Positions 15,963-64,000 of a DNA stretch of 64,000 nucleotides are shown here, one piece after another (positions within the stretch are counted from its first letter, which is position 1; every line of letters begins with the position of its first letter). Below the pieces are notes generated by a model. The model made no database searches and was not told where the DNA came from. It saw only the letters and a program-made list of their open reading frames with translations. A program made the position numbers and the translations under genes. The DNA comes from Cephalotus follicularis (Eukaryota > Streptophyta > Magnoliopsida > Oxalidales > Cephalotaceae): contig BDDD01001592.1 in the NCBI GenBank assembly GCA_001972305.1, forward strand, positions 87,755 through 151,754, in the 5' to 3' direction.

Positions 15963-15967
15963 CAAAC

Positions 15968-16464
15968 TGTTGATGTAAAAATCATTTTCTCAACAGTATC
16001 CTACGTGGAGGATTTTAATTTGTTGAAGGAAACACTGAGATATGATTAAGAAGAAGATTTGATGGTGATTATAGTCCCTGCACAAGTGAACAAACGGGTC
16101 GCAGGTCCAGGAGATTGAACTCCCGGGGACACTCCGATGCTTAAGTTAGACACTGCATAGAGAATTCAAAGTTCTTTAGAATACAAAAATGGCTGACCTC
16201 GTTAATGTCGTTGATTCTAGTATTTATAGTCTTGGAATGTAACTGCTTAACATGGATTTAGGAGTTGAAGTGTATCCCCTAAGGAAATGTCCGAGGATCT
16301 CGGACATTTCCCCTGATCTCTATCGAATTTGGTGCTTATAGGTTGTTATGCGCTATTCGTTAAGCTGGTAACGCCTGACCACGTGACTGGGCCTTTGGAA
16401 GACATCTGTCACAATCGCCCGAAGACACGTGGCAAAGTTTATGGGTTGAATTTTACCCGTAACA
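15968..16464 (-). repeat. 3' LTR of the first Gypsy element
   Basis: It begins TGTTGATG and ends CCCGTAACA on the plus strand, the same length as its partner at 25407. On the element's strand a TATA box CTATAAATA lies near 16223-16231. The purine-rich ACCAATGGGGCATA just inside (16465-16480, minus strand) fits the polypurine tract. Confidence 0.88.
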
Positions 16465-16605
16465 TATGCCCCATTGGTCTCCATTCTTTGGGCTTACTAG
16501 GGGATGGGGACCATAAGTGGCCTAGTCTCCAAAAAGGCTTGCTGCCGGTGGATGAGGATCCTCCACCGCCTCCTCCGACGGAAGACGATGCTCCACCACC
16601 TCCTC

Positions 16606-18724
16606 TGTAACATCCTCGACCCGAGTCCGCTAATTTCTCAAAGCGTACTTCGAGGATCGATTGCGTTACGTGGGGTGAACCGTTACATCCTTTAGCACTC
16701 TTGTTTAAAGCTACTTTACATCATAAACTCATGCATTTCAACATAATACATAGCCTTGAATTCCAACTTTGAACATTCTCATCTTATCTAAAGATGTTAC
16801 AAACCATAACATTCTTATACATTTACACAGGATCATCATATAATACAACGGAAAAACATAGTCTTATTACATGTCAAAACATTTATACAAACATCATTGT
16901 ATAGTACATTTCCTTTACAAAACTTCTTCTTAAGAGCTCCCTCTAAAGCTCGCATTCTCCATTCAATCCTTTTCTGAAAACATTTTATTTGAAAACAAAC
17001 ATCGAAAGGAATGAGCTCAAAATAGCTCAGTAAGGTTTTCATTGTAAAACTCATTTCATCACATCACTTTTCTAGTTAAACTCATAACTAGAGCATTTCG
17101 TAAAACATATCTCTTTTCTAGTCAAAATTCGTAACTAAAACATTTCATAAAAACGTAACATAGAAGTCATAAAACCTTAATGAACCCTTTCACACCTCTT
17201 CACCGGGGCATTGTGCACTCCCCGATTACTATCCTTACATCACATGCATGTCTGTGAGCATCTCGCTCCATTAACATTAATCCATCTCGGATTCGTTCCC
17301 CTTGGATCGCAATCCAAGGGTGGTTCATTCATCATTTCATAAAACATTTCCTTAATACTTTGAATGACCAGCTCAAAGCATTCATAAACATCAGTGTATA
17401 ACATTTCTTTCACAATTCATAAACATTTCTCTTCATTTGAGTAATTAACTTAAATGCTTTCATAAAACAGCTTTGCATAGTATTTCTAAAACTGATAATT
17501 CATATAGAAATAAACATTTTCAGAGGAAACTTAAAACATAAACATTAAAGTAGACATCTTCACGAATTCAGAAAGCTCAAGTTCAAAAAAATTGGTTCAG
17601 AATCGAATCCGTTATGAATTTTTAAAGTGGCTGGTTCCCTGTTTTAGCAGTACAGGAGCAGTAAAATGAAACAAGACTTTTCATCAAGAATTCGACAAAA
17701 TTTCAAGTTGTGCAAAACATAACAGTTAAAGTAGACATCTGAAAGTTTCTAAAACATTAAACCATTCAAAAATTAATCAAGAATTGAGCAAGATATGAAT
17801 AAAATAATCTGCTACAAATTTGAATCAAAACACGGAAAACTTTCATAAAAATAGGTGTTGAATTTCCTTACTTTGCTTTAGATTTCTTTTCTTTCTTCTC
17901 TAGCTGAATTCTCCACTTCACTCTCAGCAGAAGCACTTCCCTTCTCAGCCAAAATGACTGAATTTAGGTCTTTAATGCCCATAAATAGGCTGGTTACTTA
18001 GGGAGAAAGTCTCCCCCTCTCTCTCTCATGAGTCATCTCTCAAATTGCCCATGTGCCTTAAATCCACCAATCAAATGGTGATACTTGGTATCTAAACATA
18101 AAACATCTGAAATCCTTCTCCCCTAGCTAGCCATGTGTCCCCAAATTAATAAAATTAACTCACAAAAGGACAAAAAGTCAGATTTGGGCAACTGGTCTGC
18201 AGGCCAAAGCGTCGACGCTTCTCTCCAAGCGTCACCGCTTTACGGGTTTGTTCTAAGCTTTCCAACAGGTACACAGGGCAAAGCGTCGGCGCTTAATCCA
18301 AGCGTCGCCGCTTTTGGGTCTCGTCCAGGTCAACTGAAACACTTGACTTCAAAGCGACGAAGCTTACATTTGAAGCGTCATTGGTTGCATCAAGTGTCGT
18401 CGCTTTCATCAAGCGTCGTCAGTTGGAGGAATTTGTCCAAATTGAAAATGCCCTGTTTTTAACCGACGTTAGAAGAGGTCCAAGCGTCGTCGGTTTACTA
18501 CCAAAGCGTCGCTGCTTAATCTCACACCGTCGGTGCTTTAACCACTTCCACTCAATTTCCAGTTCAAAACAAATAGCCAATTTCGATTATGGTCATATTA
18601 CGGGTCCCCCGAACCCCCCGAGCGTTAGGGTCATATTACGGGTCCCTTGAAATATTCGTCAACCTCAAAAATAGAAATCATATATCCATAACTAATATCT
18701 CTAATGAAAATTCTGGTCATTACA
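16606..18724 (-). mobile_element. Solo LTR, Tekay/Del-like chromovirus, 2119 bp, nested
   Basis: It runs from TGTAACATCC to GGTCATTACA and has a perfect target duplication TCCTC at 16601-16605 and 18725-18729, so it entered the older Gypsy element. On the minus strand it reads TGTAATGACC at its start and carries the word CTTACTGAGCTATTTTGAGC near its end (hairpin at 17012-17029). That arrangement is known from Tekay-type LTRs. It has no coding domain. A TATA-like TATTTATG on the minus strand lies near 17980. Upstream of that, in U3, lies an array of eleven short palindromes (18207-18538), plus a direct repeat of GGTCATATTACGGGTCCC near 18591 and 18631. Confidence 0.82.
18207..18538. repeat. 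Array of eleven 14-bp near-palindromes, AAGCGTCGNCGCTT
   Basis: Copies start at about 18207, 18227, 18281, 18300, 18352, 18373, 18392, 18411, 18482, 18504 and 18525. The first, AAGCGTCGACGCTT, is a perfect palindrome, and most others differ at one to three bases. Neighbours often sit 19-22 bp apart (about two helical turns), with larger gaps between groups. They lie in the U3 part of a solo LTR, upstream of its TATA-like site. The symmetry suits a dimeric binding protein. Confidence 0.85.
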
Positions 18725-18729
18725 TCCTC

Positions 18730-19440
18730 CTAGAGAAGAAGATGCTCCACCACCTCCTCCTAGAGAAGAAGGTGTTGTACATGACATCCCCTCAGGGGAT
18801 GAAAACTAGAATAGTTTTCTTTTTTCTTGCCTTGTACTTGTAACTTCACTAAGAATTAATGAAACACAAAGTTTTTTCACCTCGGCTCTCTTTCGTATGC
18901 TTTATTTTTTGCTTTGAATGCTCAGGCACTAACTAATACTCGCAAGTCCCTTAGGATAATTAAACATAAGTAATGGAACCTGAACTTCACGCGAGCATCA
19001 TTGTTCCCCTTGGGGATTTTAACTAAGCCTAACTTATAGACTTTTCACTGTGGCCTTACAATTTTCAGGCCTAATTACCTAAGTTTCGTAGTCCCCTTAA
19101 GACACCTTATTTCAAAGGTGCTTAGATAATAAGACTTAGTCTTTACGAGTTCTGTTGTGTTCGTAGACCAAGTTTCAGGCCTGCTCGGGCAAGTTCTTAT
19201 GGGTTTGCCGAGCAGGGTCTCGTCTGGTCCATTATATTCTAGACCAGGTCGCCTGAGCTTGCAGTCCACATAGGGACACTTATTTCAAAGTGCTCAGTCC
19301 AACGAACTTGATCGTTGCGAATTCTTATGGATTCGCCTCTCAAGACAGGATATGGTTGTGGTCGGACATTGAAATGCTGACCAGTGTTTGCTCCCGTGGG
19401 AGTTTTATTGCTTCCTTTGAAGTCTTTTTCACGTGTGGTA
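18730..19440. other. 3' non-coding region of the first Gypsy element
   Basis: This lies between the nested solo LTR and the minisatellite. The plus strand shows a short proline- and acid-rich coding-like patch on both sides of the nested LTR. Beyond it are inverted words around 19150-19260 (CTCGGGCAAG, GCCGAGCAGG, TCTGGTCC). Tat-type elements often carry an antisense frame here. This copy is a remnant. Confidence 0.45.
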
Positions 19441-19445
19441 TTTGG

Positions 19446-19562
19446 TGCTTCTCGGGGGGAGTCTTTAGTGCTCCTCGTGGGGAGTCTTGGGTGCTCCCCT
19501 AGGGGGAGGCTTTAGTGCTCCCCTGGTGGGAGGCTTTTGTGCTCATCTGGAGGAGGCTTTAG
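19446..19562. repeat. Minisatellite, five copies of a 23-24 bp unit
   Basis: Units of the type TGCTCCCCTAGGGGGAGGCT are repeated head to tail five times with changes. Each unit is itself an inverted repeat (CTCCCC/GGGGAG), so the single strand could form a row of hairpins. It lies downstream of integrase in the Gypsy element's 3' non-coding region. Confidence 0.85.
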
Positions 19563-19910
19563 TGAATTGAGACCTTGGTCTGTTTGGAATACTTTCTTGG
19601 AAGCATGGTCGGGCATGCCTATATTAAGGCTTCATGGTTGAGGGAGTTGATTGGCTGCTGTTCAGAGGTTTAAGGACATGAACATTGGGTCTCTGGTCCC
19701 TTGCAAACTTGGAACTATGATCTTTGCACACAATTTTTGAGAAAAAATTCAATATTATTGACATTTTTGAATTTGCACATCTTACAAAAATCATTGGTAG
19801 TACCTCCTCAAATGCTCGACATTCCAAACTCTAGGAATCTCCCTGCCCCTCAGAGTTTCAAGTTTGAATGTTCTTGGGCAGAGCACTATCTTCACATTGT
19901 ATGGTCCTTC

Positions 19911-22900
19911 CTAATTAGGGGCTAGCTTTCCTCTGGTACCAGTTGGATCTGCAATAACTGAGTTGCATAGGACTAGGTATCCTTCCCTTAGTGGTAGGGA
20001 GTATACCCTTTTTTTATAGTAACGACCCACCCTTTGTTGGTATGCTGTAACTTTGATAGCTGCCTTGTCTCTAAGCTCTTCCACTAAGTCGAGGAGGGTC
20101 CTCAGCCCTTCTTCATTATTTTCTTCGCTGAAATGTACGACTCTTGATAACTGTACAGCAATCTCCATCGGTATCATAGCTTTAGCTCCAAAACAAAGGC
20201 TGTATGGGGACTCACCAGTTGTTATCCGAGGAGCTATAAGCCCATAGCACACTTGGTAGTTCCTTTGTTCATCTTCCCTTGCTATGCTCAAGGTACTTCT
20301 TCAAGCTCAATATGATCTCTCTGTTGATCACCTCGGCTTGACCATTACTCTAGGGATAGGCCACTGAGGCTAGCCTGTGCTCTATTCACCATTCTTTGAA
20401 AAAATTATGGAAAGCCTAGCAATCAAACTGCTTCCCATTATCTGAGATTATTACCCTCGGGACTCCAAATCTGCAGATGATTGATTTCCATACAAAGCTT
20501 TCCGTATTCTTCTTTGTGATCGTGGCCATGGGTTCAGCTTCTATCCACTTGGTGAAGTAGTCCACTGCCACAATAAAAAACTTCCTGTGCCCTGTTGCCA
20601 CTGGTAATGGTCCAACGAAATCCATCCCTCACTGTACAAAGGGTCATGGGGCCGTGATGGATGCCAGGGGTTCTGAGGGCCTCCTGCTTATATTGGCGTA
20701 CCTCTGACATCTATCGCACTTCCTCACGAAGTCTATGGCATTCTGGTGAATGGTAGGCCAAAAATAACCTTACCTCAATAATTTGTGGGACAAGGTTCTG
20801 CCCCCCGTGTGATTACCATAGACTCCTTCATGGACTTTTCTTAGAGCATAATCGGCCTCTAGGGGAGTCATACACCTCAGTCAATGATAGGAGAAAGATC
20901 TTTTGTAGAGGATCCCATCTCGGAATTGGTACCTGTTTTCTCGGTACACCAACTTTCTCGCTTATACGGGGTCCTCGGGCAAAATCCTGTTCCTCAGCCA
21001 ATTGATAAATGGAGTCATCTAGTTTGGCTCCTGTGGTGCATCTATGTCCATTACGTCTACCTCCGAGATGGTGGGCTATCCAGGTAGTCCATCGACACTG
21101 TTCTGTTTTGCTGCAACTCCTCCGCTGTTGCTAACTTGTACAACTGGTCTGCTTTGGCATTTTCTGCTCTGGGCACCTTCAAGATTCTAATCGTTTGGAA
21201 GGCTGACTTCAAACTCTGAAAGTATATAAAATACTTGGACATGGAGTCTTCTCTGGATTCATACTCGGCACTCGCCAAACCAACTACTAGTTGAGAATCA
21301 CTAGAGGCTTCTATTTTTTGGACCTTCAAGCGCTTCGTGATTGTCAGCCCGGCGATCAGAGCTTCCCACTCAGCCTCATTGTTTGTGGCCTTGAATCCAA
21401 ACCTCAGAGCATACTCTATGGTCCACCCATATGGACTTGTCAACACCAATCTAGCCCCACTGCCGGAGACGCAGGATGAACCATCCATGGACAACTTCCA
21501 TAACCCCTTATCTTCTTCAGATGTGTCTTCTTCCATACACTCCGTAAGTGTATGATCTCCTACAGAATCTGCCAAGACTTGTGATTTTATTACTGATCTG
21601 GCTTCAAACTTTACATCATACTCGCCCAATTCAACCGGCCACTTGATCAGCCTTCTCGAGAGTTCTGGCTTTGCTAGTACTTGTCTTAGTGGTTGGTCGG
21701 ATAAAACTTTGATGGTATGAGCTTGGAAGTATGGCCTCAACTTCCTTAATGCTATGATCAGAGCATAAGCGAATTTTTCTACCTCTGGATACCTCCCTTC
21801 AGTATCGTTCAAGGCTTTGCTGACATAATATACTGGCCTTTGAACTTTCTCCTCTTCTCCGACAAGCACTGCACTCACTGCGCCTGTTGTTGCCGCAAGG
21901 TACAATTACAGGTTCTCCCCGTCCTTAGGTTTTGAGATCAGAGAAGGGGAAGCCAAGTATTCCTTCAACTTGTCGAAGGCCGCTTAACATTCATCTGACC
22001 AAGAGAAATCCTTAGGATCTCTTAATACCTTGAAGAAAGGGAGACACTTTTCCCCTGACTTTGAGACAAACATGCTCAGGGCTGCTATTCTTCCATTCAA
22101 TTTCTGTATATCCTTGATGGTCTGAGGAGGTCTCATGCTTTGCACTGTCAAAATTTTCTCCGGGTTGGCCTCTATTCCACTGCTTGAGACTATGAACCCG
22201 AGGAACTTGCCAGAGGTGACCCCAAAAGTATACTTGGAGGGATTGAGCTTCAATTTGTATCTCCTTAATGCCCTAAAAGTTTCCTCCAAGTCTTTAATGT
22301 GGGGGCTCCTTACCGGTGTCTTGACGAGCATGTCGTCAATATAAACTTCCATGTTTTTCCCGATCTGGGGCTCAAAGATCTTGTTAACCAAACGTTGGTA
22401 GGTTGCCCCAACATTCTTCAATCCAAAGGGCATGACTTTGTAACAGTACATGCATCTGTCGGTGATGAAGGTTGTCTTGTTCTCGTTGAGCTCATACATG
22501 GGGATTTGATTATACCCCGAGTAGGTATCCAAGAAGCTTAACATTCTGTACCCCGAGGTTGCATCCACCAACTGATCAATCTTTGGGAGAGGAAAGTGAT
22601 CTTTGGGATAAGCTTTGTTGAGGTCCGTGAAGTCAATGCACATCCTCCACTTGCCGTTTGCTTTCTTGACTAAGACCGGGTTCGTCAGCCAGTCAGAATA
22701 GTGCACTTCCCTGATGAACTCCGCTTGTAACAGCTTGCTCACCTCCTCTGATAATACTTGCTGCCTTTCAGAAGCGAAGTTCCATTTCTTCTTCCTTGTC
22801 GGAGGCCTCATAGGATCTACACTTAGCTTGTGCACCATCACTTTTGGGCTGATCCCAGGGACCTCCTCTGCCGACCAAGCAAATACATCTTTGTTATTTC

Positions 22901-23814
22901 TGAGGAACGTTATAAGTTCCCCTTTCTCCACCTCTCCAAATTATGATCCGACTTGGATGATTTTTTCTTCATTGCCCTCCTCCAAGGGCACCTATAGCAC
23001 TTCTTCCATAGGTTGTGGATGCTCGGGTTCCACATCCTTTCTGAACTCCATATTTGCTATGGACAAGGCCTTCTCCTTCCCCTTGTCCATCATGGCAGTT
23101 TTGTAGCACTGTCTTGCTACCTGCTGATCTCCTCTGACTTCCCCTACGCCAAACCTTATCGAGAATTTCATCACTAAGTGTCTCTTAAACATTATTGTCT
23201 CTAACAAGTTTAAGCCTAGACGCCCAATTATGACATTATATGGGCTTGGTGTTTCCATTACCAGGAATGTCATCTATACCTGAGTCTGATGTGGGGCCAT
23301 GCCTGTAACCACAGACAGGTCGATGGATCCCAAAGGATGGGCCATTTCCCTTGCAAAGCCAACCAGTGGGGTTCACGGGCCTGAGCTGATCGGTCAGTAT
23401 GTTTAGCTTATCAAACGCATGTTTATACAAGATATCGGTCGAGCTCCCGCTGTCAATCAGGATCCTCTTCATAGTGAAAAGTTCCACCAGAAGAGTTATC
23501 ACCACTGGATCATCATGAGGGAGACGTACTCCCTCGTAGTCCACCTCAGAGAAGGATATCACCTCTTCATCTCCACCAGTCTTTATCCTCTTGCTGTGCT
23601 GAATCTGTTGCACTGCAAGGGATTGCCTTCCATAGTCATTTCTAGCATTTTTATGGTCGCCACCAATCGCGACCCCTCTAGAGATGGTGTGGATGACACA
23701 TCTGGGTTGATGCTGCTGCTCCTCCGACTGCTGTGGAGCTTCTTTTATGCACTTTTTCCTTTGCTGATGAGCGTTCCTATCCACATACTTACGTAGGTGC
23801 CCCTTGCAAATCAA
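19911..23814 (-). pseudogene. pol region of the first Gypsy element
   Basis: On the minus strand, in order, I see an aspartic protease (LIDSGSSTDILYKHAF), reverse transcriptase (TDLNKAYPKDHFPLPKID, YIDDMLVKT), RNase H (VYYVSKALNDTEGRYPEVEK, SDQPLRQVL), a second archaeal-type RNase H (LSMDGSSCVSGSGARLVL, NNEAEWEALIAG), and integrase (MDFVGPLPVATG, DYFTKWIEAEP, VIISDNGKQFDC). The order and double RNase H are typical of Tat. The region is interrupted in several places and should be treated as a fossil. Confidence 0.9.
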
Positions 23815-23817
23815 GAC

Positions 23818-25370
23818 TTATATTTGATTCTTTAGCTGCCTACACTCCTCGGTATCGTGACCGTGGTCACGATGGTACCAGCAATACTTTTCTGTGCCCC
23901 TCTTCTTTGTTGAGGACCTCATAGGTGCATGCCATTGGATGGGGACCTTTTCTTTCTCCATAGCAAGTATCCTGGTACGAGATTCCAAGAGAGGGGCAAA
24001 ATTGTTGTATGCCGGGATGCGCCCCCCTTTGGGACTCCTCTCTCCTAGAGAGCTTGTGCCTGGGGTCATCCTTGTGGAGCTCAGACCTCTCCTTCCTCTT
24101 TTCTTTCTTGCCTGGAGCATTTTGTGAATGCTCCCCTTTCTCCTCCGGATGGCCTGACCAGGATGTTTTCAGTTTCCTGGCTTCCATCCCATCCTCAGCA
24201 TTGATATACCTCTCTGCTATTCTCAGCAGGTCTACCATATGCACCGCGGGCTTCTTCAACAGAGAGAAAGTGAAGGGGGAGTTGTTCTTCAACCCACTGT
24301 TCAAAGCTACTAAAGCGAAGGACGGCTCCAGGTCTTTCACTGTGAGAGACTCCTTGTTGAATCTGGTGAGGTAGTCTCTTAGTGATTCATCTTTCCCCTG
24401 CACCACGTTAATCAGATGGGTTGAGTTTCTCCTCTGTGTGGTGCTGTTGAGGAATTTGGTGACGAACAGCTCTGCAAACTGATTGAAATTTTCCACAGAA
24501 CCCTCTATCAGGGTAGAATACCAGGACTGGACAGCTCCAGTCAATATTGTTGGGAATCCTCTGCAAAGCGTGGCGTCCGAGGCCTGGTGCACCAACATTG
24601 TTTGGATGTAGGTGCGCACATGTTAGATGGGATCCGTAGACCCATCATACTGCTAGAGACTCGGGAACCATAATCCACTAGGGATACGCTCTTTCATGAT
24701 CTCTGATGTGAAGGGGTTGGCACTAATGTTGCGCACCTCAGCCAAATATCCCCTTGGCTGCTCGGCTCCTCGAATCCTCTTCTCCATCTCTGCAAGCTTC
24801 CTGTTCATTGCTTGCTCAACATTCTCAATGTTCCTAGCCCTGCTAGAAACCTGAAATTCCCCCGCTAGTGTGGCTGTGTGGCCCATCCTACTCCCCTGCA
24901 CTGTACCAGTCCTGCACGAGGCATTGGAGCAAGCACAGATCTCCTTGGGGTGCTCTTGGTCGGGGATTGTTGTGATCCTAGGCAGTTGAGGACTCCGCCT
25001 TTTGAGATGTATTAATCTCAGTTCTCCTCCTCAGGGGTGTATTAACCCCTGACCGCCTTGGGGGGAGAAGGCCCCTTGACGGGTTTCGCCTTTGCCCACT
25101 GGGGCGTTGATTCACCTGGGCTGGCCTGTGCGGTCCGGAATGTCCTCGGACCACTGGTTGGGTAGGTCCGGCCTGATTTTGGTTGGCTAAACTGGTAGCC
25201 AATAAGTTGGTGAGACGCTCCACTCCCTGGAGCAGCTGAGTGAATTGCTCCCTAGTGATGGGAGCTTGGTCAGAAGTCGTGACTTAACCGGCATCAGTAG
25301 GTGGGATCTCCTGTACTCGGCTGCCGGTTGCTCCAGAGTTGTTGTTTCTTCTTGGATGCATGATTCTTAG
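23818..25370 (-). pseudogene. gag region of the first Gypsy element
   Basis: The minus strand codes for a retrotransposon gag core (QASDATLCRGFPTILTGAVQ, WYSTLIEG, QGKDESLRDYLTRFNKESL) followed by a basic region and a C/H cluster resembling a zinc knuckle (KYCWYHRDHGHDTEECRQLK). Upstream is a Gln/Pro-rich N-terminal part. Gag would form the particle that packages the RNA. The region is broken. Confidence 0.88.
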
Positions 25371-25388
25371 TAGCTTTTTGCCACGTTT

Positions 25389-25406
25389 CCCACAGACGAC
25401 GCCAAC
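25389..25406 (-). other. Primer-binding site region of the first Gypsy element
   Basis: Directly inside the upstream LTR the minus strand reads GTTGGCGTCGTCTGTGGG. The second Gypsy element has nearly the same string (GTTGGCGCCGTCTGTGGG) right after its LTR at 55927. Position and conservation fit a tRNA primer site. I did not assign the tRNA. Confidence 0.6.
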
Positions 25407-25903
25407 TGTTGATGCAAAAATCATTTTCTCAACAGTATCCTACGTGGATGACTTTGATTTGTTAAAGGAAACGTTGAGATATGCCCGAGAAGAAGATTTG
25501 ATGGTAATTATAGTCCCTGCACAAGTGAACAAATGGGTCGCAGATCCAGGAGGTTGAACTCCCGGGGACACTCCGATGCTTAAGTTAGACACTGCACATA
25601 GAATTCAAAGTTCTTTAGAATGCAAAAATGGCTGACATCGTTAATATCGTTGATTCTAGTATTTATAGCCCTGGAATGTAATTGCTTAGCATGGATTTCG
25701 AAGTTGAAGTGTATCCCCTAAAGAAATGTCCGAAGATCTCGGGCATTTCCCCTGATCTCCACCGGATTTGGTGCTTACAGGCTGTTATGCACTATTCGTT
25801 AAGCTGGAAACGTCTGACCACGTGTTTAGGCCTCTGAAAGACATTTGTCCTAATCGCCCGAAGATACGTGACAAAGTTTATGTGTTGAATTTTACCCGTA
25901 TCA
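25407..25903 (-). repeat. 5' LTR of the first Gypsy element
   Basis: It begins TGTTGATGC and ends CCCGTATCA on the plus strand and is 497 bp long. It matches the LTR at 15968 along its whole length with scattered changes. On the element's strand it opens TGATACGGGTAAAATTCAAC. Confidence 0.9.
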
Positions 25904-28199: not shown

Positions 28200-28763
28200 T
28201 GGCCATTGTAGAGTGCAGATTACCAAACACAAGAGCACACTCTCTACTTCTCTCTCTTTCTCGAGCCCATACATTCTTTACAACCTCTGTTCTCTCTCTC
28301 TCTTTCTTTGCTCAACATTTTCTCTGCTAAACTTAAGCTAATCACGCTTTGTTAAGAGAGAAATTCACTCTTAAACCTCTTCTTTATTTAGAAGAAGAAA
28401 AAGAAAAGCTGCTGCTTCTCTCCGTGTGTGTGTGTGTGTGAAGCATTATGCTTCAAAGCTTTTCGAGAAGATACCATTTTTAGAAGGAAACCAACCTTTA
28501 TTTGTCAAAAAGATGAATTGGTTTGTTTTAAAAACATCATTCAAAGCTACATTTCGCTATATAGTTCCCTAAAACCCGTGTTTAATGAAACACATTCCTC
28601 ATTTTGACACAACCCCACCTTCTTTTTATCAGAAAAGAATAAACAGATTCCTCAAAAAATCAACCTTTTTTCACTTTGCCATATCCCCTGTCACTAAAAC
28701 AAGCCTTCACTCCATAGAAGCCAAAAGAGACACACACACCTCCTGCTTTTACCAGAGAAAAGA
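28200..28763 (+). promoter_or_regulatory. Likely promoter and long 5' UTR of the DUF630/632 gene
   Basis: CT-rich pyrimidine patches (28240-28330), common around plant transcription starts, and a (GT)9-10 microsatellite near 28422-28440 lie upstream of the ATG. A weak TATA-like ATATATAAATG occurs near 28105-28116. Several ATGs before 28764 open only short frames, so small upstream frames may dampen translation. Confidence 0.35.
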
Positions 28764-31700
28764 ATGGGGTGTGTTGCCTCTAAACTAGAGGAAGAAGAAG
28801 TAGTATCGATATGTAGAGAGAGGAAAAGGCAGTTGAAACTAGCTGTAGATAGAAGATATGCACTTGCAGAGGCACATTGTAGGTACTGTCAAGCTTTATA
28901 TGCAGTAGCAGCAGCTATTAAGCTCTTTGTTGCACGCCTTGCTTCACCTTCTTCACCATTCCTCATCACTTTCCCTCCTCCTTGTCCTCCCTCACCAACT
29001 AGTAGTGACCAAAATGTGATAACAAACCCCATGTTTCTTCAACAAATACCTTCTGAGTCAACAACCCATGAAGCCAGTGCTTGTGACTGTTGTAGTGATG
29101 ATGATGACGGTGATGATTCTTCAACATCTTCAGGTTCTTCAGCAGAAGAGCGCAAACAACAAGTTGAGAGACAAGTAGAGGATTCTTGTGGTTACTTTTA
29201 CATGCAAATGCCACCACCAATGCCATCACCACAGAGAGATTTTGGGTGGGATTTCTTTAACCCATTTGATAGTGTAAGGCCAGAGATCATAGCAGGCTAT
29301 AGAAGGAGCTCAGATGATGATTTGAGGGTGGTGAGAGAACAGGAAGGTATTCCAGAACTGGAAGAAGAAGGAGATGCTAAAGAAGAAGAGAAAAAGGTGA
29401 TGGTTGCTGAAGAAAAAGGCAATGTAGAGCATGAAGGGACTGATAACAGTGTTGTAATGAAAGTTGTTGAGGGGTCTAATGTGAGCCAAGCAGAGCAAAA
29501 GGGTCTAACAGTTATCGAATCACCAGAGAGGGGAAGGGAACTTTTGGAGGCATTGAAGGATATTGAAGATCATTTTATTAGGGCTTATGATTCTGGCAAG
29601 GATGTGTCTAGGATGCTAGAGGCTAATAGATTTCATTTGCAGTCTAGTTTGGATGAAATGAAAGGTGGGTATCTGTTATACTGTGAAAATGTTTAACATT
29701 TGTTTTGATGTTTTACTTGTGCATTTGAGCCTAATTTCATTTGCAACAAAATTTGATTAGTATTCAGCAATAATGTTTGGTATAGAAATGTAAGAGGTGG
29801 TTTTTGTTCTCCCAAAAATAATCCTTAATCTTCCCTCCATTTTTTTCTTTTCTTTTTGATACCTATGAATAACTCTTGGAATTGCAATTTAGCATTTTAG
29901 TTAATCAGAAATTCTTTGTTTAATGATTCTAAAAAAATTAGCATTTCCCATGGATTTTTAAATTTTTTGTCAAAATCTCATACCATGTGTTTTTTCCCCT
30001 GCTATCTTTGTTCAAAAGTATAAAGTTTCAATATAAACTCGTCATGAATATTCTTCCAGCGCCATTACATTGTTGATTGGTATGCATTTATGGAGATTTT
30101 GGGTTCCTAAACTTCTTTTATAGGTTTCTTGTACTTGTTAAGATAGTGGCAGTTTAATTTCTTTCATTTTTATTATGGTTTCTTCCCTTTCACTTTTGGG
30201 TTTTATTTATCTTTTGGACAGACCTTACTTGGTGGGGCTAATGTTGTTACCTTTGCACATAGGCCTTGCATTGTTCTGTTGAGAATATAATATTTAACTT
30301 TGCTGGTTTTGTATGCTATGAGAAACTAAAATTCTGAAAAGGTGGTAGCAATAAACTTTGTTGATTTATGATTTTGTTAATTGTATTCATGTAAAATTCA
30401 TTTTTCTCTTGAAAGATTGTATCCAACCTAATGGATAAATTGCTTGTAATGTATTCACATTTGTTGTACCTGTAGACTTGTTGCTACTTTTTACATTTCA
30501 ATTGTCCTTTTTTACTGAGGTCTAATTCATTGTTTCATTGAGTTTTGGTAGCATCATGATTGCATTTCTTTTTCCCTTTAGAGAATATACTGAGGTCCAA
30601 ATCCAACTTATATATCTTTATCCCCAGCCTTTTGTAAATCTTTATCCTTTCTCTTCACTTGTTTTGTTATCATGAGTTCACCATGATCTTGGCCCACTTA
30701 TTTATCCTTTATACTTTGTTTTGATTCTTAACAAGTACTTAAACTTCTCTATCTGAGTTGTTTTTGTGCAAATCAATATCAATCTCATAGCTAATCCTCC
30801 ACTTATCTCATTTTACTGCAGAGAACTCAACGAAACTCATCCAAGCAATATCATGGCACCGGTCTACTTCATCAGCTAAGTCTTCGTCATGTAAGAGTCT
30901 TGTAGCATCCAGTTCGAAATGTTCTTCGACGTGGACAGAATATAAGAATGACTTCTTTGATGATCATGGAGGAATGGATTCAGGAAGCCATTCCCTAACG
31001 CTAGGAAGGTTGTATGCTTGGGAAAAGAAGCTCTATGACGAGGTTAAGGTAAACAGTTCTTCCCACCTTTTCCCGCCGACTTTGTAATATTCATAGTAAA
31101 ATGAACAAAAATCGTTAGTCACTCATTTATATCCTTCCAATATACCTTTTAATGCTTCTTTCACATTATGAATAATGGTGCATTTTGCTTCTATGAATGA
31201 AGTTACTTATGTTTTTCCGTGGATTCTTTATATCAGCAACCAGGCTATGTTCTTGTAATGGCTCTTCGCTAAGTCCTATTACTGGAAAACAAACAAATTT
31301 AGTGAGAAAAGCAGACCAGATTATTGAGTATCATCGAATTATGTAGCATCTGGGCCTCCGGGGCTCCCTTTTGTCCTGCATTGGTAGCTTCCTTGACCAA
31401 GGAAGGAGATTTGGGTTGCTATTTTACTTTTTGCAAAATGGTAAAAAAAGTTTCAATGGATGAACTTTAAAGTTTAAACAATATTGTTATGAATAAAAGG
31501 GGTTTTGTAAAAACCTTGTCAAGATAAATTTTACACATATACAACCAGTTTGGTGCATGTGGATGCAGAAGTTTCTCAAAATTAACAAAGTAAGAGCTTT
31601 TGGGTAGAAATCAGGTTTTGGAATGCACTATAAATAATGATAGGTCTTGAAAAGCAACATATAATTCCAGAGAAAGTGAACTGAGTTAAGATGAGATAAA

Positions 31701-33338
31701 GAGGATAGCCCGAGCTGTACTATGAAGAAGAGGGTCCGGACAAGGACTGCCGAGAAATCTCTATTTTCTGTGGTAGCTAGCTACAATTATGTTACTAGCC
31801 ACACTTCGATTCTGTATGTAGCCTAGCAGCCTTCGTTCCTAGAAGAAAATAAAACCAACTTACCACATTTCGGCCAAGTTAAATTTTCTACCGGTGATAC
31901 AGTGCATTGCACAGCATTTGATATCCTTGCATATCTTCAACTGTGGGCTTGATCAGTTTCTAGAAATTGACCATAGGTGTTAAAAATCCAATCTGTCAGT
32001 TTTCAAGAATAATCTATAATGAACTGTAAGCTTGGAATGATATTTACATTGGCCCCTACTTAGAATCTGTGCTATATCTTTTTGCTTCAAAAAGACGACT
32101 GAAAATTCAAAAAATGCAGAGAATTTTCCCTTTTTCTTCTTACTAATGTACTCGTGGAATTTTACTGCCTTAGGCTGGAGACACTGTGCGGAAAATTTAT
32201 GAGAAAAAATGTTCTCGACTAAGAAATCAGGATGTCAAAGGAGTTGATGAACTCACTATGGACAAAACTAGGGCGACGGTAAAAGATTTGTACACAAGGA
32301 TCTTGGTTGCAATTCGAAGTGTCGAGTCAATCTCAAAGAGAATACAAAAACTAAGAGATGAAGAACTACAGCCCCAAATTGTTGAACTATTGAAAGGGTA
32401 GGTAAACATTTCAGAAACTCAGCATGTTTAATTACTCTCATTAATTGTTTCCTTGGTTTTCTTATTTGTCGTCTCGCTATTGCAGCCTAACATACACATG
32501 GAAAATTATGATGGAATCTCATGAAACACAGAAGAAGATTATATATGAAGTGAAAACTTTTGCTTGCCCCTCATTTGGAAAATTCTGCAATGATTCTCAC
32601 AGACTTGCTACACTTCAGCTTGAGGCCGAGCTTCAAATTTGGCGTGCACGGTTTTCCGAGTACATTGCTGCACAGAAAGCTTATATTGAAGCTCTTCATG
32701 GTTGGCTAACGAAGTTTCTAGTCCCTGAAGTTGAATTCTACTCTGGGGGCAGGAGTTCAGCTGCCCCATATCGTGTTGATGGTGGACCCCCATTGCTGGT
32801 GATATGCCATGAGTGGTTAGATTCCATGGAGAAGTTACCAGATAAGGCAGTAGCCTTTGCATTGAAAAGCTTTTCAAAGGATGTGAGGGCCTTGCGGGCT
32901 CAGCAAGGAGACGAACAACAACAGAAGAGAAAAGTTGACAGTCTAGCAAAAGAACTTGATAGAAGGAGTCTTGCATTCCAAAAAGCAGAGAACAGGTTTC
33001 TTGAGGCTAAGGTTATAGAATACAAACCGGAGACAAATGTGGAAAATGTAGAACACCGGCACGATTACTTGACAGAGAAGAAGGACCAGTTGGACTCTTT
33101 GAGGAGTAAGCTAAAGGTTGAAAAGGAGAAACACCATGTTTGCATGCAAGAAACAAAAAGGATAACATTAAAGGGACTTCAGACTGGGTTTTCAACAGTT
33201 TTCAATTCCTTATCAGAGTTCTCTAAGGCTTCTTTGAAAATGTACAATGATCTTGTAAATTACAGTGAAAATGCAGAGAAACTCGGAAATCTATCGTACA
33301 TAGAGGGTACCCAAGCTGAAGAAAATGGCAACAGATGA
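28764..33338 (+). CDS. DUF630/DUF632 protein (NRG2/REL2-like)
   Basis: Exons 28764-29664, 30822-31048, 32174-32397 and 32486-33338 join in frame at GT/AG sites to give 734 residues, the usual range. The start MGCVASKLEEEEVVSICRER is the DUF630 signature; Gly2 and Cys3 fit myristoylation and palmitoylation, hence plasma-membrane binding. A low-complexity middle (Pro-rich, then Asp/Ser and Glu/Lys-rich, about 65-250) leads to DUF632 from about residue 256 (RGRELLEALKDIEDHFIRAY) to near the end. That domain includes LGRLYAWEKKLYDEVK, the ELLKG-LTYTWKIMMESHETQ stretch across the last junction, and long heptad-like helices. Family members include NRG2, a regulator of nitrate response, and rice REL2, which affects leaf shape. 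The molecular role is not well known. The gene looks whole. Confidence 0.93.
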
Positions 33339-34557: not shown

Positions 34558-37500
34558 CTATCGTAGGTACAAGGAGACCAAGAATTGGGAGAAGAGTATT
34601 AATTCGCTAACCACAGAAGCAGGAGAGTGTATGCCGAGGAAGGGAACAATGTCTACCTGCAACCAGTTTTCAACTGCTGACCCCACCACTGCACCAGCCA
34701 CAAGCCCCCCTATAGTTATGACAGTGGCCTTCCCTGCAAAGATTAACAGTAACTCACTTTCAGACAGTTCTACCAAGATGAAGTTTAAAAGAAAATTTTG
34801 CACGATGAATGCAGTTTTAAGTCTAGTCATGCTTATTCAAAAGACGAAACAGTAAATCCCCCTCATAGTTCAATTTCTCTCCATGGAATTAACATAGATT
34901 ATGCAATCTCCTGTTTTCTTACAAAAGAGAGTCGGGTGTAGAAGACATTCAAGCCCATAGGGATATTTGAACCCAGATTAATGATATAGATCTACCTACT
35001 GAAATGGTTATGGAAATTTGAACCCAGAATAATGACATAGATCTACCTATTGAAATGGCATCGGTGCCATCCACACTACACAGCCACAGCTAAAAGCCCT
35101 CTCATTATACATGATTGAAGGGAATCCAAATAACAGTTCCAATGTGCTCCATAATAAAAAAAATACAATAATACACAGCAAAGATGGCAATAGCAGCATA
35201 GGTGTTGTTTGGCCCTCACCCTCTCTTTATTATGTGTTAAGAGTTATAAGCAATTAGTGGCTATATTCTCTTTGTATTTCCTTATTTGTTATTTTTCCTT
35301 ATTTGCTATATGTCCAGGTTCTATGAATCTGAGTATTTCATTAATATAAATACATAAGACTGTGTGATTAGAAAACACACAAGTCATTTTCTCTGTTTTG
35401 TAACATGGTATCAGAGCCATAGGTAATTAGTAAAAAAAAAAAAACCCTAGCGGAGCCGCAAACAAAAAAAAACCCTAACGGCGCCGCACTGGTCCAGCAG
35501 GTCGTCCTCTCCGACAATCGGTTCCTCTGTCCGGCGTAGCGATCGCTCCAACGACGCTGTTTTCTTCAAGTACCAACGTTTGCGTTTTTTTTTTTTGGAA
35601 GATCTCTCTGATTCTGGTAACGGCGACGTTTGCGACGTTGTTTCGCTTGTGTAACTGTCGTCTTCTCCAACAGGTCGTCCTCTCCGACGATCGGTTCCTC
35701 TGTTTGGCGGCGAGATTTCTCCGGTGACTTTGTTTTCTTCCGGTAACAACGTTTTTGTCTTTTGAAGTTCTGGTTTTCAGTATACAGTGGTATGTGAAGG
35801 TTTGTTGGTGTGATGCAACGCCGTGAAGCTCGCTGCCACGGCCGTAGTCTGTGATGTGTTGTCGGTGATCATTTTGTTGTGTTGTGATTGTAGTGTGTTG
35901 CTCTCATAAGTGTGTGTGCGCTGTGTGGTTGTGATTGTATGGTGTAGTAGTTATATGGTTTAGTGTATTTTGTGAGGTGATCTGGTTTTGTTTTCTATTG
36001 GTTTCCATGGTTTTCGTCGTGGAGTGACGTTATAGTATTACGTTAGTGTTTTACAATGGCTGAAACTAAAGTTCCATATGTGACTCCTTCACCGAATGAG
36101 ACAGTTAATGTTACTATTACCTCCATTAAACTGAAAGGGAGTTCTAATTATTTGTTGTGGGCTCAAGCGGTGAAGATATATATTATGGCTAAGAAGAAAC
36201 TCAAGTTTCTTACCTCTTATCCTTCGACACCTGATGCTAGTGGATATGAAGATTGGATGCAGGAGAATGGAGTGATTTTGATATGGTTGTGGAACAGCAT
36301 GGAACCTGAGATTGCTGAAAATGTAATGTTTCATAATACTGCTAAGGGTGTCTGGGATGATTTGAAGGACACCTATTCTCAAGACAAGAATATGAATAGG
36401 GTGTATGATCTTTATGACAAAATGTTTCATCTTCACCAATCTGGTAAGCCTCTACATGATTATTATAGCACTTTCAAGGGTCTTGCTGAGGAATTAAATG
36501 TATTTCAACCTCTCACCAATGATATTGATAAACTTAAGGCACATCGAAACGAATTTTTGGTTTCTAAATTTCTCGCTGGCCTAGATCCTGATCTCCAAAA
36601 GCTAAAAGGACATATTCTTGCTGGTGAGACTGTCCCATCTCTTACAGATACCTTCTCTCAACTTCAGCGTGTTGCTTATCCTATGCAGCACGAGTCCTCT
36701 CCCAAGGACAACTCAGCCTTTACTATTGGTCGGGGTCGGGGTTAGAGTCGGGGCCGTAGCCGTGGTTCAGGGGGAGGTCGTGGTGCTAGTATTGGTCGTG
36801 GTAGTTCTTTTGGTGACAGACCACCTAGGAAGTGTAGTTACTGTGGCAAGAATGGTCATACCATAGATTATTGTTGGGACAAGCATGGCAAGCCAGATTG
36901 GGAACCTAAGACAGCTAATCATGTAGTGTTAGATGGTGGTCATGATAGTGTTTCATCTGGAGATACTCCACAGGGTCAAATATCGGGTGGTAGTTCTACT
37001 TCACAACGTGATGATCTTTCTCAGATTTTGCGACGTTTACATACTCTTGAGACATCTAATATGACATCTGTTGGGTCCACTTCCTCGGCTACTCTTGCTC
37101 ATGCAGGTACATCTGCCTTCTTTACCTCCACCACTCCGCCCTGGATTATTGATTCTGGAGCATCTTCTCACATGACTGGTAAGTCATCTTTGTTTACCTC
37201 TTTAAATCATGTTAACCAGTCCTCATCTGTTATACTTGCTAATGGCTCATCCACTTCCGTATCAGGGTATGGTAATGTTTCTCCAACTTCCTCCATTAAT
37301 CTGTCATCCGTCCTACATGTTCCTCAATTACCGTTAAATCTTCTTTCTGTTAGTTAGTTAACTAAGGCCTTACATTGTTCAGTAACATTCTTTCCGACTC
37401 ATTGTATTTTTCAGGACCTTCACACGAGGAAAACGATTGGTGGAGGGCATGAGAAAGATGGACTGTACTATCTTGACTGTGGAGCTGTTATTTCTTTTGC

Positions 37501-40500
37501 TGCTGTTGCTTCTGGTGGTGGTGTGACTCCTTTTCAGTGGCATTGTCAGTTAGGTCATTTGTCTTTAGCTCGGTTAAAGTTAATTTTTCCGTCTTTAAGT
37601 CAGTGTCTAAGATAGAATGTGAAGCCTGCGAGTTGGGTAAACATCATCGTACTTCCTATCCTCCTCATACTATGGCTCGTAGTTTGTCGTTATTTGATTT
37701 AGTCCATTCGGACATCTAGGGTCCTTGTCGTGTCCGAAATAGAAAGGGGTTCATGTATTTTGTCACCTTTGTGGACGACCACTCTCGTCTCACTTGGTTA
37801 TATATGTTAAAGGACGAGTCTGAGTTTCTTTCTGTATTCCAAAATTTTTATAATGAAATAAAAACGCAGTTTCGTATGTCTATTAAAGTTTTGCGTTCTG
37901 ATAATGCTTTGGAATATATACAAAATGAGATTTCTAGTTTTTGTGTAGCACAAGGTATGATTCATCAGACTAGTTGTTCGTACACGCCTCAACAAAACGG
38001 GGTGGCGGAACGTAAAAATAGACATTTACTTGAGGTGTCTCGTACTATTATGATGCATATGCATGTTCCAAAACAATTTTGGTGTGAAGGAGTTCTTACT
38101 GCATGTTATTTGATTAATCGCATGCCATCTTCTGTTATTGCCGACAAGTCTCCTTTTTCTATTATTTTCCCCCATCAACCGGATTTTCACTTACCTCCCG
38201 TGTTTTTGGGTGTATTTGTTTTGTTCACAATTTACATATTACCACTGATAAACTTTCCCCTAGATCTACTAAATGTGTTTTTCTTGGTTATTCTAGTACA
38301 CAGAAAGATTATAAGTATTATGACCCTATAGGGCAAAAGTATTTTGTTAGTGCTAATGTTACATTTTTTGAAGTTCATTCTTATTTTGGTCCATCTCCTA
38401 CGGTTCCCAGGGATGTTTGGCAGGTGCCATCTACTCCACCTATTCCTACCTTGATTCCTTTTTCAGATACTCCTAGTCGGTCGTCTCCACCGTTTGAGTT
38501 CTATGATTAGGTCTATCAACGGCAGCAGAAGACTACTTCCCAAACAGAGATACCATCAGCTCCACCTGTATCAATTCCACCACCGTCGTGTTCCTCTAGT
38601 GAAGTTCCACCATCCTCCTCCTCTAATGATCTACCCATTGCGTTGCGAAAAGGTAAATGTTCTCTCACTAAAAGCTCTAATCTTATTTATTCCATTGATA
38701 ACTATGTGTCTATCTCTCACTTGCCATCATCTGTCCATGCCTTGACCTTATCCTTGTCTACTACATCTCTACCCAAAACCTATGTTGAGGCCCTCCGTAT
38801 TCCGGGATGGAAGGAGGCCATGGATGTGGAAATAGATGCTCTTTTATCTTGTCATACATGGAGTTTAGTATATTTACCACCTGGTAAGGTTCTTGTTCGG
38901 TGTCGATGGGTGTATACTATTAAGTACCATCCTGACCGGTCTGTTGCGCGGCTCAAAGCTCGTTTGGTTGCCAAGGGGTATACTCAGACTTATGGTGTTG
39001 ATTATTTTGAGACCTTCTCCCTAGTTGCTCGGTTGAACTCAGTTCGTTTAATCATTTCTTTGGCTGTTAACTTTGATTGGCCGATATTTTAGTTGGATAT
39101 CAAAAATGCTTTCTTATATGGTGACCTTAGTGAGGAAGTTTATATGGAGCAACTTCCAGGTTATGTTGCTCAGGGGGAGAATGGAACTCGGGTGTGCAGA
39201 TTACAAAAGGCAATTTATGGTCTCAAACAGTCTCCTAGGGCTTGGTTTGAGAAATTTAGTGCAACGGTGCTATCGCGTGGCTTCTCGCAGTGCTACTCTG
39301 ATCATTCTGTGTTTGTTCGTCGTCATAATGGTAAATTGGTTGTATTAGTTGTTTATGTGGATAATATAATTGTCTCAGGTGATGATGTAGCAGGTATCAT
39401 AGAAGTAAAGTCTTATTTACAACAACACTTTCAGACTAAGGACCTAGGTAATCTCCATTATTTTCTTGGTATTGAGGTTGTAAGAAGTAAGAAAGGACTC
39501 AGTTTGTCCTAAAGGAAATATGTGTTAGATTTGTTGTCTGAAACTGGTATGCTTGGTTGCAAACCAGTTGATGGGACTCAGTTTGTCCTAAAGGAAATAT
39601 GTGTTAGATTTGTTGTCTGAAACTGGTATGCTTGGTTGCAAACCAATTGATATTCCTATGGATCCTCACCAAAAGTTTGGGATTGATGATGGTAGTCCTC
39701 TCACGGATGTTCACCAGTATAGGAGTTTGATTGGGAAGTTGATTTATCTTACTGTTACTAAACCTGACATTTCCTTTGCAGTGAGAGTACTTAGTCAGTT
39801 TATGCAGGCTCCACAGAAAGCTCATTGGGATGCTGTCATTCGAATACTTAGCTATCTGAAGAGTGCTCCTGGAAAAGGTTTGATATATCGTCCCAATCGG
39901 CATATGGATCTTGTTGCATATTCCGATGCTGATTGGGCAGGTTCAGCAAGTGATCGTCGGTCTACTTCGGGTTATTGTACCTTTGTTGGTGGTAATCTGG
40001 TGTCCTGGAGTAGTAAAAAGCAAACTACTGTTGCAAGGTCAAGTGCTGAAGCTGAGTATAGGGCAATGGCACATACCATTGCTGAGTTGATGTGGCTCTG
40101 ATCTCTACTTCTTAAAATGGATCTTTTAGTTTCAAAGCCGATGAAAATGTTTTGTGATAATCAGGCGGCTATATACATAGCTAGTAATCCAGTCTATCAC
40201 GAGCGGACCAAACATATTGAAGTGGATTGTCACTTTGTACGTGATGCAGTTATGAAGAAACTAGTTGAGACTCCATTTGTTTCTTCATCAGGTCAACTGG
40301 CAGATGTTCTCACAAAGTCACTATTTGCTCCTAACTTTCGCATGTGCTGTAACAAGCTGAGCATGGGTGATTTATATGCTCCAACTTGAGGGGGGTGTTA
40401 AGAGTTACAAGCAATTAGTGGCTATATTCTCTTTGTATTTTCTTATTTGTTATTTTTCCTTAGTTGCTATATGTCCAGGTTCTATGAATCTGAGTATTTC

Positions 40501-43500
40501 ATTAATATAAATACATAAGACTGTGTGATTAGAAAACACAGAAGTCATTTTCTCTGTTTCGTAATATTATGAACTTGTAATTATCTAGTCAATATAAAGA
40601 ATCAATCTAAATATGCAACCGTGTCAGAAGGATGAGCTAATTTCAATTAAGAAATTCAAAATATAAAAGAACTGCATAAAGAACTAATTACCTAACTTTA
40701 CTTTCTTTTTGGTCATGAAGTACAATGATGCCCCAAAACTAGATGCTAAGATCAGCCCAGGAACATCTGCCCCACCATAAGCAACAGCAGAGGATGTAGA
40801 AGCTCCGTTAACATAAATTAAAACCATCAAAGCTCCATATACACCTGCTTGTATGCCCAAATCTCCAGTTGATGGTGTTTCAACTGAAACGGGTGAATTC
40901 TTGATAGCAGTCTGCAGCCACTGAGGCAATGATCCCATCCCAGGGGAATTCACAGGTTTAACATCAGCATAACGAATGTTACTACTCACAACTTTCCCTG
41001 CCCGACGCTGCGTTAAGCTTTGCATAAGCAACATGTCATATGCAGCCTCAACCTAAACCGAAATTAATCAGACAACAAATAAAAATTGAGGAACTTTCCA
41101 AATTATATATTACCGAAGTAGGTAATAACTGCTTGTTGAGATAATAAATGCTTGAGATGATAAAATAAAAAACACATATAGAATGTTAACTAATAGGATC
41201 TATACATCAACACAATCAGCCTCAACCAAATGATCTTCTGAGTTAAGGGTAAACCTCAAGCAAAGCTACATATAGAATGTAGAAGTTCCGTTAACTAATA
41301 GGAGGGGGGCAGTGAAGTGCATATCCATTGACCACTATCTTATAGCACATTAAAAAGTATCAAGCAAGGTCTACATAGGTGGCTACACATCAATTTGAAC
41401 GATGGAATAAACAAGGACATATTGGTTTTTGAGTGCATAGTAAAACATGCAAATCAAATAACAAATTGCTGAGAATGCTTAGTTATTCATTTTCCAAGAA
41501 GCTTGGAATAAACGCAAGGAAATCAAATGTCAGGCAGAAACTTCACGTAATGAATACATACTAAATATAGCTAAAGAATAGTAACATGGATGACATAATA
41601 GCCTATCGATTCCAGAATTCCAGAAGCTGTAGATGACCACTAGGAGTTGAAGTCCTCGAAGTTCAAGGGGGCCTAAAATGGTGCCGCTTATCATCAACGG
41701 CATAAATATTACTCCCTCTATCTCTTTTCTTGGGTCATTTTCAATACTTTTCTATGTCTCAAAACAATAGACCCTGGTCAAAAAGTCAATGAACAATTGC
41801 TATTAATGTTCAACTATAAACTTTTTATCAATATCTTCAATATTTTTTATTGGATGTACATATATAAATATAAGGGATGAATTCGGTATTCTTAAGTTAA
41901 TATGAATGTGTGCGTATTTAACAATTGCCAAAAACAATGTTTTTTGTTTCTCTCTAAGACAAAAGACTAACAAAATGGGATGGAGGGAGTATGAGTTTTC
42001 ACTGAGATAACTTTTGTGAAGTTATCAAGGCTGGTAATGTGGATTTATACATGTCCAACCTAGCTAAGCAGGTAATTTATGATGTAATTGTTTTTGATTT
42101 TGTTATGCGAAGTTCTTCCTTTATGAACAGTAGATAGTGGGATATGCAATTTGGTCAAGTTAGTAACATATGCCAGCCCCCGTCACTAGAGTAGTCACAA
42201 ATTTCAAATTTCAAGGCATCAATGATAAAAATGTTCCACAGAAGATGAAGTAGCTACCACACTGCTTAATAAACTTAAAATCTATACATTCTAAACTAGA
42301 TGCGTTAAAAGTTTGAATCTTCACAAGAAACAAACTTTGGAAAAATAGTTGCATAATCAAACCAAATCTACAACTATACATAGATTTTTTATATATATAT
42401 ATATATATATTTGTTTATTTATTTATGTTCACTAAATTAATGAAAAATTAATCCCATGCAAGTAAGTGAAACTGATAAGCTAAGCTTATCAGAGGGAGGA
42501 GATGAACAAGAAGGATAAATCTGCAATTCGAGAAGCAGGGGTCTCCAAGAGAGAGAAGAACAGTTCTTGATTTTTATTGAATATCTTTTGTTGATTAAAA
42601 TTCTGGTATTTATACTACTATGAAAAGTACAATCAATCATTGGAAAAGTACAATCTATCAATTTGTTCAAAAAAAAAAAAAAGTACAATCTATCAAAGCT
42701 TTAACTACTTGCACCTCAGGCTAGAAGTTTCTAACCGAAATAACTGCCATCTAACAACTAACAACAAACTACCATAACTGGCTAGTTCTCTAAAATGTAA
42801 TCATTGAATCTAATGGGCTTGTTGCGTGTTCTGCTGCTTCGAATGCCATCCTGGACGTTACTCGGATTGCCACTATTGCTTGGATTGCTCATTGCCACTA
42901 TGGTCTCTGCCACTGCTGCCAATCATATCAGAAACATCTAGAGTAGCACAAATTAACTACTAAATCTAACCTAAATAGATATAACCACCAAAACAGCTAA
43001 AGTTTATAAAATTAAAACAAATAAGCAATTGAATCCACTTCAAGCCAAAATTAGAAGGAATAAAAAAGCAAACATTAAATTTAAAATGACCAGATTTAAG
43101 CAAGTAATGAAAATAAAATTCCAATGCAAGTAAAAGTTCCTAACTTTAACATAAAAGTAGCCACAGAATCAAATTTAATGCAATAGCCAGAAGCCAAAAT
43201 TAGAAAAAAAAAATAAAAACAAAGTAAAAACAAAAACCTGTGCAATCGCTTCTAGATCATCTTTACAAGAAGCGAGGATCGAGTTCTTGGCGCGAAGAAT
43301 ATCATCGAAGGAGGCCCCTTCGGAGACTCCGAGGAGCTTAAGCGCGTTCTCCACCGACATCTCGAACGGCTCGTCGGCTGCTCGTGAACCGGCCCTCACC
43401 GACGTCCGCCGTAACGGCGAGCTAACGGCTCCGTTTCTCCACTGTTCGGTTCTGGGTTTAATTAGGACTACTGTTGTTGACGTTGTCGGGTTCGGGAGGT

Positions 43501-55926: not shown

Positions 55927-55971
55927 GTTGGCGCCGTCTGTGGGAAACGCAGCTAATAGCCATTAAGAATC

Positions 55972-63985: not shown

Positions 63986-64000
63986 CCAGGTACAGGAACA

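Follow-up and report, generated by a model that had tools for sequence, protein, structure and literature searches.

The window analysed here, a stretch of 64,000 nucleotides from the genome of Cephalotus follicularis, contains a solo long terminal repeat (LTR), recognised by its termini and its target-site duplication, whose U3 carries an array of near-palindromic 14-mers with the core GTCGAC. The same core recurs elsewhere in the window and the genome with different flanks, which we call type A (AAGC-GTCGAC-GCTT), type B (ACA-GTCGAC-TGT) and a third flavour (AAGAC-GTCGAC-GTCTT, found in stretch L048); the two main flavours are written out as AAGCGTCGACGCTT and ACAGTCGACTGT. The features on which the argument rests are as follows, with all TATA-like sites identified by eye.

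16601-16605: left copy of the target-site duplication TCCTC, flanking the solo LTR
16606-18724, minus strand: solo LTR of 2119 bp, TG..CA
17989-17980, minus strand: putative TATA-like site CCTATTTATG, about 220 bp downstream of the array in the sense direction
18207-18538, minus strand: array of eleven 14-bp near-palindromes, type A, sense AAGCGNCGACGCTT, in U3 at sense 187-518
18725-18729: right copy of the target-site duplication TCCTC, flanking the solo LTR
46955-52280, minus strand: Ty1/Copia element with two LTRs of about 630 bp
47254-47263, minus strand: TATA box TATATAAATA, about 10 bp past the end of the Copia array
47273-47542, minus strand: type B array (ACAGYCGACTGT) in the U3 of a Ty1/Copia LTR (about 46955-47580)
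51956-52243, minus strand: type B array in the second LTR of the Ty1/Copia element
61250-61500, plus strand: type B array in an LTR-like stretch, upstream of the TATA-like CTATAAAAGG at 61813

On contig C2127, two LTR copies of the same family flank gag-pol ORFs (stretch L039) in the same orientation, and because the family LTRs lie that way round, the minus strand is the sense strand of the solo LTR (TGTAATGACC...GATGTTACA), which therefore places the array in U3. In L039, the interior of this relative, Pfam matches above the cut-off were obtained for Retrotrans_gag, RVP_2, RT_RNaseH, RT_RNaseH_2 and SH3_Tf2-1, and matches below it for RVT_1, the integrase core and the chromodomain (Chromo, 20 bits against a cut-off of 25.1). 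Judged by these domains, the family appears to be a chromovirus-like member of Ty3/Gypsy, presumably of the lineage named Del/Tekay. Two related Ty3/Gypsy elements lie in opposite orientation in the window (15965-25703 and 55424-61085, arms 70-92% alike), and the solo LTR appears to sit inside the former. Beside that element, at 19441-19564, is a tandem repeat with a unit of about 23-24 bp (TTTAGTGCTCC..GGGAGGC).

A sequence-only reading of this DNA had described eleven 14-mers, one of them a perfect palindrome, often spaced 19-22 bp apart and lying upstream of a TATA-like site, and all of this was borne out. The eleven start at 18207, 18227, 18281, 18300, 18352, 18373, 18392, 18411, 18482, 18504 and 18525, and fit AAGCGTCGNCGCTT (read on the plus strand) with 0-3 mismatches, the one at 18207 being the perfect palindrome; the free base N of this consensus corresponds to sense position 6. 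Across the 64 kb, 21 strand-matches with at most 3 mismatches were found, one of them outside the array at 35618, whereas 100 shuffles gave 4.64 on average and 13 at most. Successive sites are 20, 54, 19, 52, 21, 19, 19, 71, 22 and 21 bp apart, so that seven of the ten spacings fall within 19-22 bp, and helical phase drifts along the array because of the 71-bp gap and those of 52-54 bp.

Whether related LTRs carry the array, and at fixed spacing, could be answered in the affirmative on both counts. Among 30 family LTR loci, counting the window copy (L009), 29 have it at corresponding slots, with 7-11 sites each at up to 3 mismatches, and neighbouring slots are typically separated by about 21, 21, 71, 20, 19, 21, 52, 21, 53 and 21 bp; fixed spacing is also strong in the genome-wide rule described below, by which sites stand two helical turns apart. 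The thirtieth locus, L036, keeps both ends of U3 (LTR positions 1-139 and 505 onward), but its central 494 bp (1007-1500 of L036) fails to align to the array of the other copies. A single site at 3 mismatches lies at the edge of this stretch, and several others are at 4-5 mismatches; the cores are degenerate, GTCAAC/GTCGAC-like and similar to GCGTCAACG, and some of them stand 21 and 19 bp apart, at 3-5 mismatches. The centre of U3 in L036 may thus be a swapped module, a strongly diverged array or a lost one. A family copy can therefore lose the array in recognisable form, which slightly weakens the claim of fixed slots and leaves the genome-wide spacing rule unaffected. L036 was excluded from the diversity and variant-sharing analyses, made on an alignment of the other 29 copies, and from the slide, period and covariation analyses.

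The sites have been kept under constraint. Outside CpG and TG/CA positions, nucleotide diversity is 0.089 in the motifs (83 columns) and 0.182 in the spacers (215 columns; p = 3.5e-5). We took variants present in at least three copies to come mostly from source elements, and singletons to reflect mostly decay after insertion. Shared non-CpG variants are depleted in the motifs, with 0.143 per site (84 sites) vs 0.440 in the spacers (168 sites; odds ratio 0.21, p = 1.4e-6), whereas singletons are not (0.429 vs 0.399 per site, p = 0.68), which points to selection on replicating source elements rather than on dead copies. CpG columns go in the same direction more weakly (0.733 shared variants per site in motifs vs 1.071 in spacers), and TG/CA columns show no difference between motifs and spacers in the 29 copies. 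When the slots were slid along the alignment, leaving out shifts below 8 bp and any placement with under 60 usable sites, no position from -180 to +617 was as low in shared variants as the true slots; over the whole LTR, 718 of 1765 slides reached such low values, every one of them shifted by at least 618, that is, into the conserved R/U5. Since this half is equally poor in shared variants, constraint is not unique to the motifs, which are islands of constraint within a fast U3, other parts of the LTR being conserved as well. Comparing shared with singleton variants in this manner offers a general way to separate control sites of replicating elements from bases kept after insertion.

Within the motif, the best-kept sense positions are A1, A2, A9 and T13, position 6 is free, and conservation is higher in the right half (6.01/7) than in the left (5.27/7). 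Paired dyad positions show no covariation above independence in 309 sites, with complementarity within 0.07 of expectation in either direction (for the pair 6:9, 0.21 vs 0.277 expected). It is therefore the bases that have been kept and not their self-pairing, which fits a protein site rather than a maintained hairpin, and the dyad as a kept hairpin was ranked lower for this reason. CpG positions in the motif vary mainly from C to T and from G to A, a pattern that fits past methylation of dead copies.

A point that escaped the sequence-only reading is that the array exemplifies a rule of wider reach, by which GTCGAC-core palindromes stand 20-21 bp apart throughout the genome and in other elements of the window. 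In the host genome (1.577 Gb), the 14-mer with at most one mismatch gave 155,221 forward and 155,428 reverse matches, compared with 331 and 325 for its reversed control; since a palindrome is counted once per strand, distinct sites number between about 155,000 and 311,000. Type B, at the same tolerance, gave 179,465 matches (control 1,772). Exact GTCGAC pairs 21 bp apart occur 105,145 times (control 1,224) and those 20 bp apart 41,498 times (control 391), while a distance of 26 bp gave 582 (control 110) and one of 16 bp gave 68, in no excess over its control of 72. At any spacing of 11-40 bp there are 224,506 pairs (control 3,907), and among the matches listed for this search, all 100 of them on one contig, 81 lie at 19-22 bp. 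As background, the 2.9 million contigs of IMG/VR contain the type B pair in 12 stretches and the exact type A 14-mer in 42.

Sampling of the genome gave the same spacing. A sample of 154 kb was made up of the window and ten 10-kb stretches less L044, which consists of N throughout; the commonest distance between GTCGAC-like cores in it is 21 bp, with 15 pairs against about 0.09 expected per distance. This sample contains one exact 21-bp GTCGAC pair where the genome average implies about ten, and so the arrays must be clumped. In 19 arrays chosen from flank clusters, and therefore partly dependent on one another, 62 of 109 neighbour spacings are 19-22 bp, and the best of the periods tried (8-14 bp) is 10.4 bp. 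The phase is weaker for longer neighbour spacings of 30-130 bp (n = 41; best period 10.1 bp, R 0.385, p = 0.02).

The carriers of these arrays are varied. The sequences examined yielded 59 array entries of at least three sites, which fell into 14 clusters by their flanks after the site letters had been masked, a family number that is approximate, because the linkage was loose and some stretches of DNA appear under two names (L009, also in the window; L002, also L003; L007, also L008). Between the window LTR and the type A carriers L001-L008 we found no alignment except one 42-bp match. L004, one of these carriers, has arrays of its own and is likewise a solo LTR, flanked left and right by GTTTC as read by eye. 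Four ORFs from the interiors of two more type A families (L051 and L052) gave weak aspartyl-protease matches in Pfam, in one ORF only; the wording NPYSNTY(K/N)PG in these ORFs recalls what we take to be an Athila-type Gag. In the window, arrays lie upstream of a TATA-like site in three elements. The type B element at 46955-52280, whose two LTRs include one 300-bp block that is 96% identical, is 5.3 kb long and is labelled Copia on the basis of a Retrotran_gag_2 domain. The LTR-like stretch with the plus-strand type B array extends from 61087 to 64000, interrupts the end of a Ty3 pol region and showed no recognisable right end within the window. The third flavour, similar to AAGACGTCGACGTCTT, was observed at 2679-2930 and 5080-5330 of L048, in a long direct repeat, with a 21-bp pair.

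Among known systems, the array most resembles the repeated palindromic boxes (RM) of Sirevirus LTRs. According to the available part of Bousios et al. (2010, PMC2829016), these boxes are mostly CpG-bearing, start 200-400 bp from the LTR edge, lie in the first LTR half upstream of the TATA box and vary from element to element around one core, which is CGG-CCG in all but Tnd-1; they are called Sirevirus-specific there and absent from classic retrotransposons. The solo LTR likewise has a number of palindromic boxes towards its upstream end (sense 187-518 of 2119 bp), and one Vitis Sirevirus box, CGGTCGACCG, contains GTCGAC (PMC2829016, same part). However, the core here is GTCGAC, without the CGG-CCG signature, and the carriers include a 5.3-kb Copia element and a chromovirus-like Ty3 family, in a relative of which Retrotrans_gag, RVP_2 and SH3_Tf2-1 are of Ty3 type. 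The sites here follow the 20-21 bp rule, whereas in the available portion of PMC2829016 the words 'spacing' and 'helical' occur in the reference list only. Sirevirus boxes lie shortly upstream of the TATA box; here the distance is about 10 bp from TATATAAATA in the Copia element and about 220 bp from the TATA-like site in the solo LTR. The array differs in core and in carrier and is therefore a variant of the Sirevirus arrangement, not a member of it. Palindromic boxes in U3 were already known from Sireviruses; what is new here are the Ty3 carriers, the core common to several lineages and the two-turn spacing.

Two other systems share some traits with the array. Del LTRs, as the accessible text of Cruz et al. 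(2014, PMC4029996) describes them, can have 5' CpG islands of low conservation and variable length, with none identified in the eudicot group. The solo LTR, about 2 kb long and from a chromovirus-like Ty3 family, is similarly rich in CpG close to the end of U3, but the stretch concerned consists of constrained palindromes, and the string 'palindrom' is absent from the text of PMC4029996. The targets of VANC proteins, in the part of Hosaka et al. (2017, PMC5735166) available, are also short motifs arrayed in non-coding parts of elements, and are read by a sequence-specific protein. Unlike the sites here, they belong to VANDAL elements and to a protein that the element itself encodes, and 'palindrom' is absent from the text of PMC5735166.

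Enhancer repeats in the U3 of Tnt1 and Tto1, and the 21-bp U3 repeats of HTLV-1, drive LTR transcription through host factors; each is limited to one element family, and their sequences differ from the array described here. Plant LTRs diverge fast, and their control regions are rarely comparable. In the literature covered, which left most subscription journals outside its scope, we recognised no description of GTCGAC arrays and found no matches on short motifs common to unrelated LTR families. Among the matches listed for the motif strings (25 of 121 in one case), what appeared looked like primers or unrelated text.

We consider it probable that the array serves the LTR promoter as an enhancer in U3, helically phased and bound by a dimeric protein. 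This proposal builds on what was directly observed, namely the array, its conserved slots, the genome-wide spacing, the constraint in source elements and the core common to other LTRs including Copia; binding, the dimeric state, the host-encoded origin of the protein and activation are the parts that we infer. Each 14-mer would be a binding site for the dimer, centred on GTCGAC, and sites 20-21 bp apart would place the bound dimers on one face of the helix, where they could bind or act together upstream of the TATA-like site and raise transcription. Since selection acted on source elements, the sites presumably benefited the element, which makes activation or escape from silencing likelier than a silencer. 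The sequence-only reading had suggested a multi-copy enhancer or silencer read by a dimeric protein. The multi-copy array at fixed spacing stands, with 29 of 30 loci, the two-turn rule, the 10.4-bp period and the constraint behind it; the retention of the sites argues against a plain silencer, and the protein is an inferred reader.

More tentatively, one host protein or a few paralogues may read a common code, GTCGAC cores two turns apart with T- or G-type flanks, in unrelated Ty3 and Copia LTRs, a suggestion that we regard as open to considerable doubt. If true, a single regulator would control the transcription of much of the retrotransposon load of this plant, and its switch would have passed between unrelated elements or arisen in them by convergence. 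We know of no plant factor that could be named for a GTCGAC core, and of the plant sites known to us (VOZ GCGT-N7-ACGC, DREB RCCGAC, NAC and TALE TGACAG) none seemed to fit both flavours. A rule found at about 147,000 places (exact GTCGAC pairs, 20-21 bp) in more than one superfamily provides a handle on retrotransposon activation, and makes testable both which protein reads the palindromes and whether unrelated elements have one switch.

The palindromes could instead act in RNA, as hairpins formed from the U3 at the 3' end of the transcript and cut to small RNAs that mark the element for host silencing, a reading we consider unlikely. Array RNA does fold more strongly than shuffled sequence (type A, z -4.48; type B, z -8.34; one control stretch of the same LTR, z +1.31), and an excess of small RNAs over palindrome clusters has been described in maize Sireviruses (Bousios et al. 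2016, as described in the available part of PMC10760457), but no covariation keeps the dyad, its halves are unequally kept, and two-turn spacing is not needed for a hairpin. A trigger of silencing would also bring no gain to the element, which sits badly with the depletion of shared variants. Palindromes may bring small-RNA targeting with them as a cost, as argued for maize Copia elements in the accessible part of PMC10760457. The same depletion counts against the array as a neutral by-product, in which a unit of 20-21 bp was tandemly duplicated in an old LTR and spread by descent and exchange. Short tandem units are present (period-20 repeats at 47273 and 51978), and some arrays in one cluster are joined only through shared flank pieces; on the other side stand the helical phase that reaches past nearest neighbours in the 41 longer spacings and the occurrence of the same core in LTRs that do not align outside it, and we regard this origin as quite improbable.

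Escape from silencing would take a different form if a protein encoded by the elements, perhaps acting in trans, bound the sites and removed methylation, as VANC does for VANDAL. VANC targets are short arrayed motifs in non-coding parts of elements and differ between VANC21 and VANC6 (PMC5735166, available part), and here too there are two main flavours, with flanks that tend to agree within a 21-bp pair (82 of 100 among the pairs listed vs 61 expected). The check for a VANC-like protein covered parts of two interiors. A sense ORF of 179 aa in L040 matches nothing in Pfam and may be an unrelated insertion or chance, but in L039 the five sense ORFs of at least 90 aa follow gag-pol order, with one of them, 146 aa long and situated between RNase H and integrase, lacking a Pfam match at the cut-off. 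The VANC21 motif is rare in other elements, as far as the available part of PMC5735166 goes, whereas the GTCGAC core crosses Ty3 and Copia, and we hold such an anti-silencing protein to be rather improbable. A site of silencer or chromatin nucleation that serves the host, kept as damped elements hurt it less, would agree with CpG-rich sites whose CpGs vary mainly by transitions, like methylated DNA, but selection in source elements and not after insertion is the opposite of host-driven retention, which leaves this explanation very improbable. An enhancer bound by a dimeric protein is thus the reading we retain.

Other features were observed in the remainder of the window. A second Copia-like element, by its ORFs, lies at 35234-40567, with a pair of 173-nt terminal repeats (97%) and a 79-bp tandem duplication at 39495-39651. 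The ORFs at 28698-33338, starting with MGCVASKLEEEEVVSICRERKRQLKLAVDRRYALAEAHCRYCQALYAVAAAIKLFVARL, are likely those of a host gene, and recall proteins that we take to be of the DUF630/DUF632 type.
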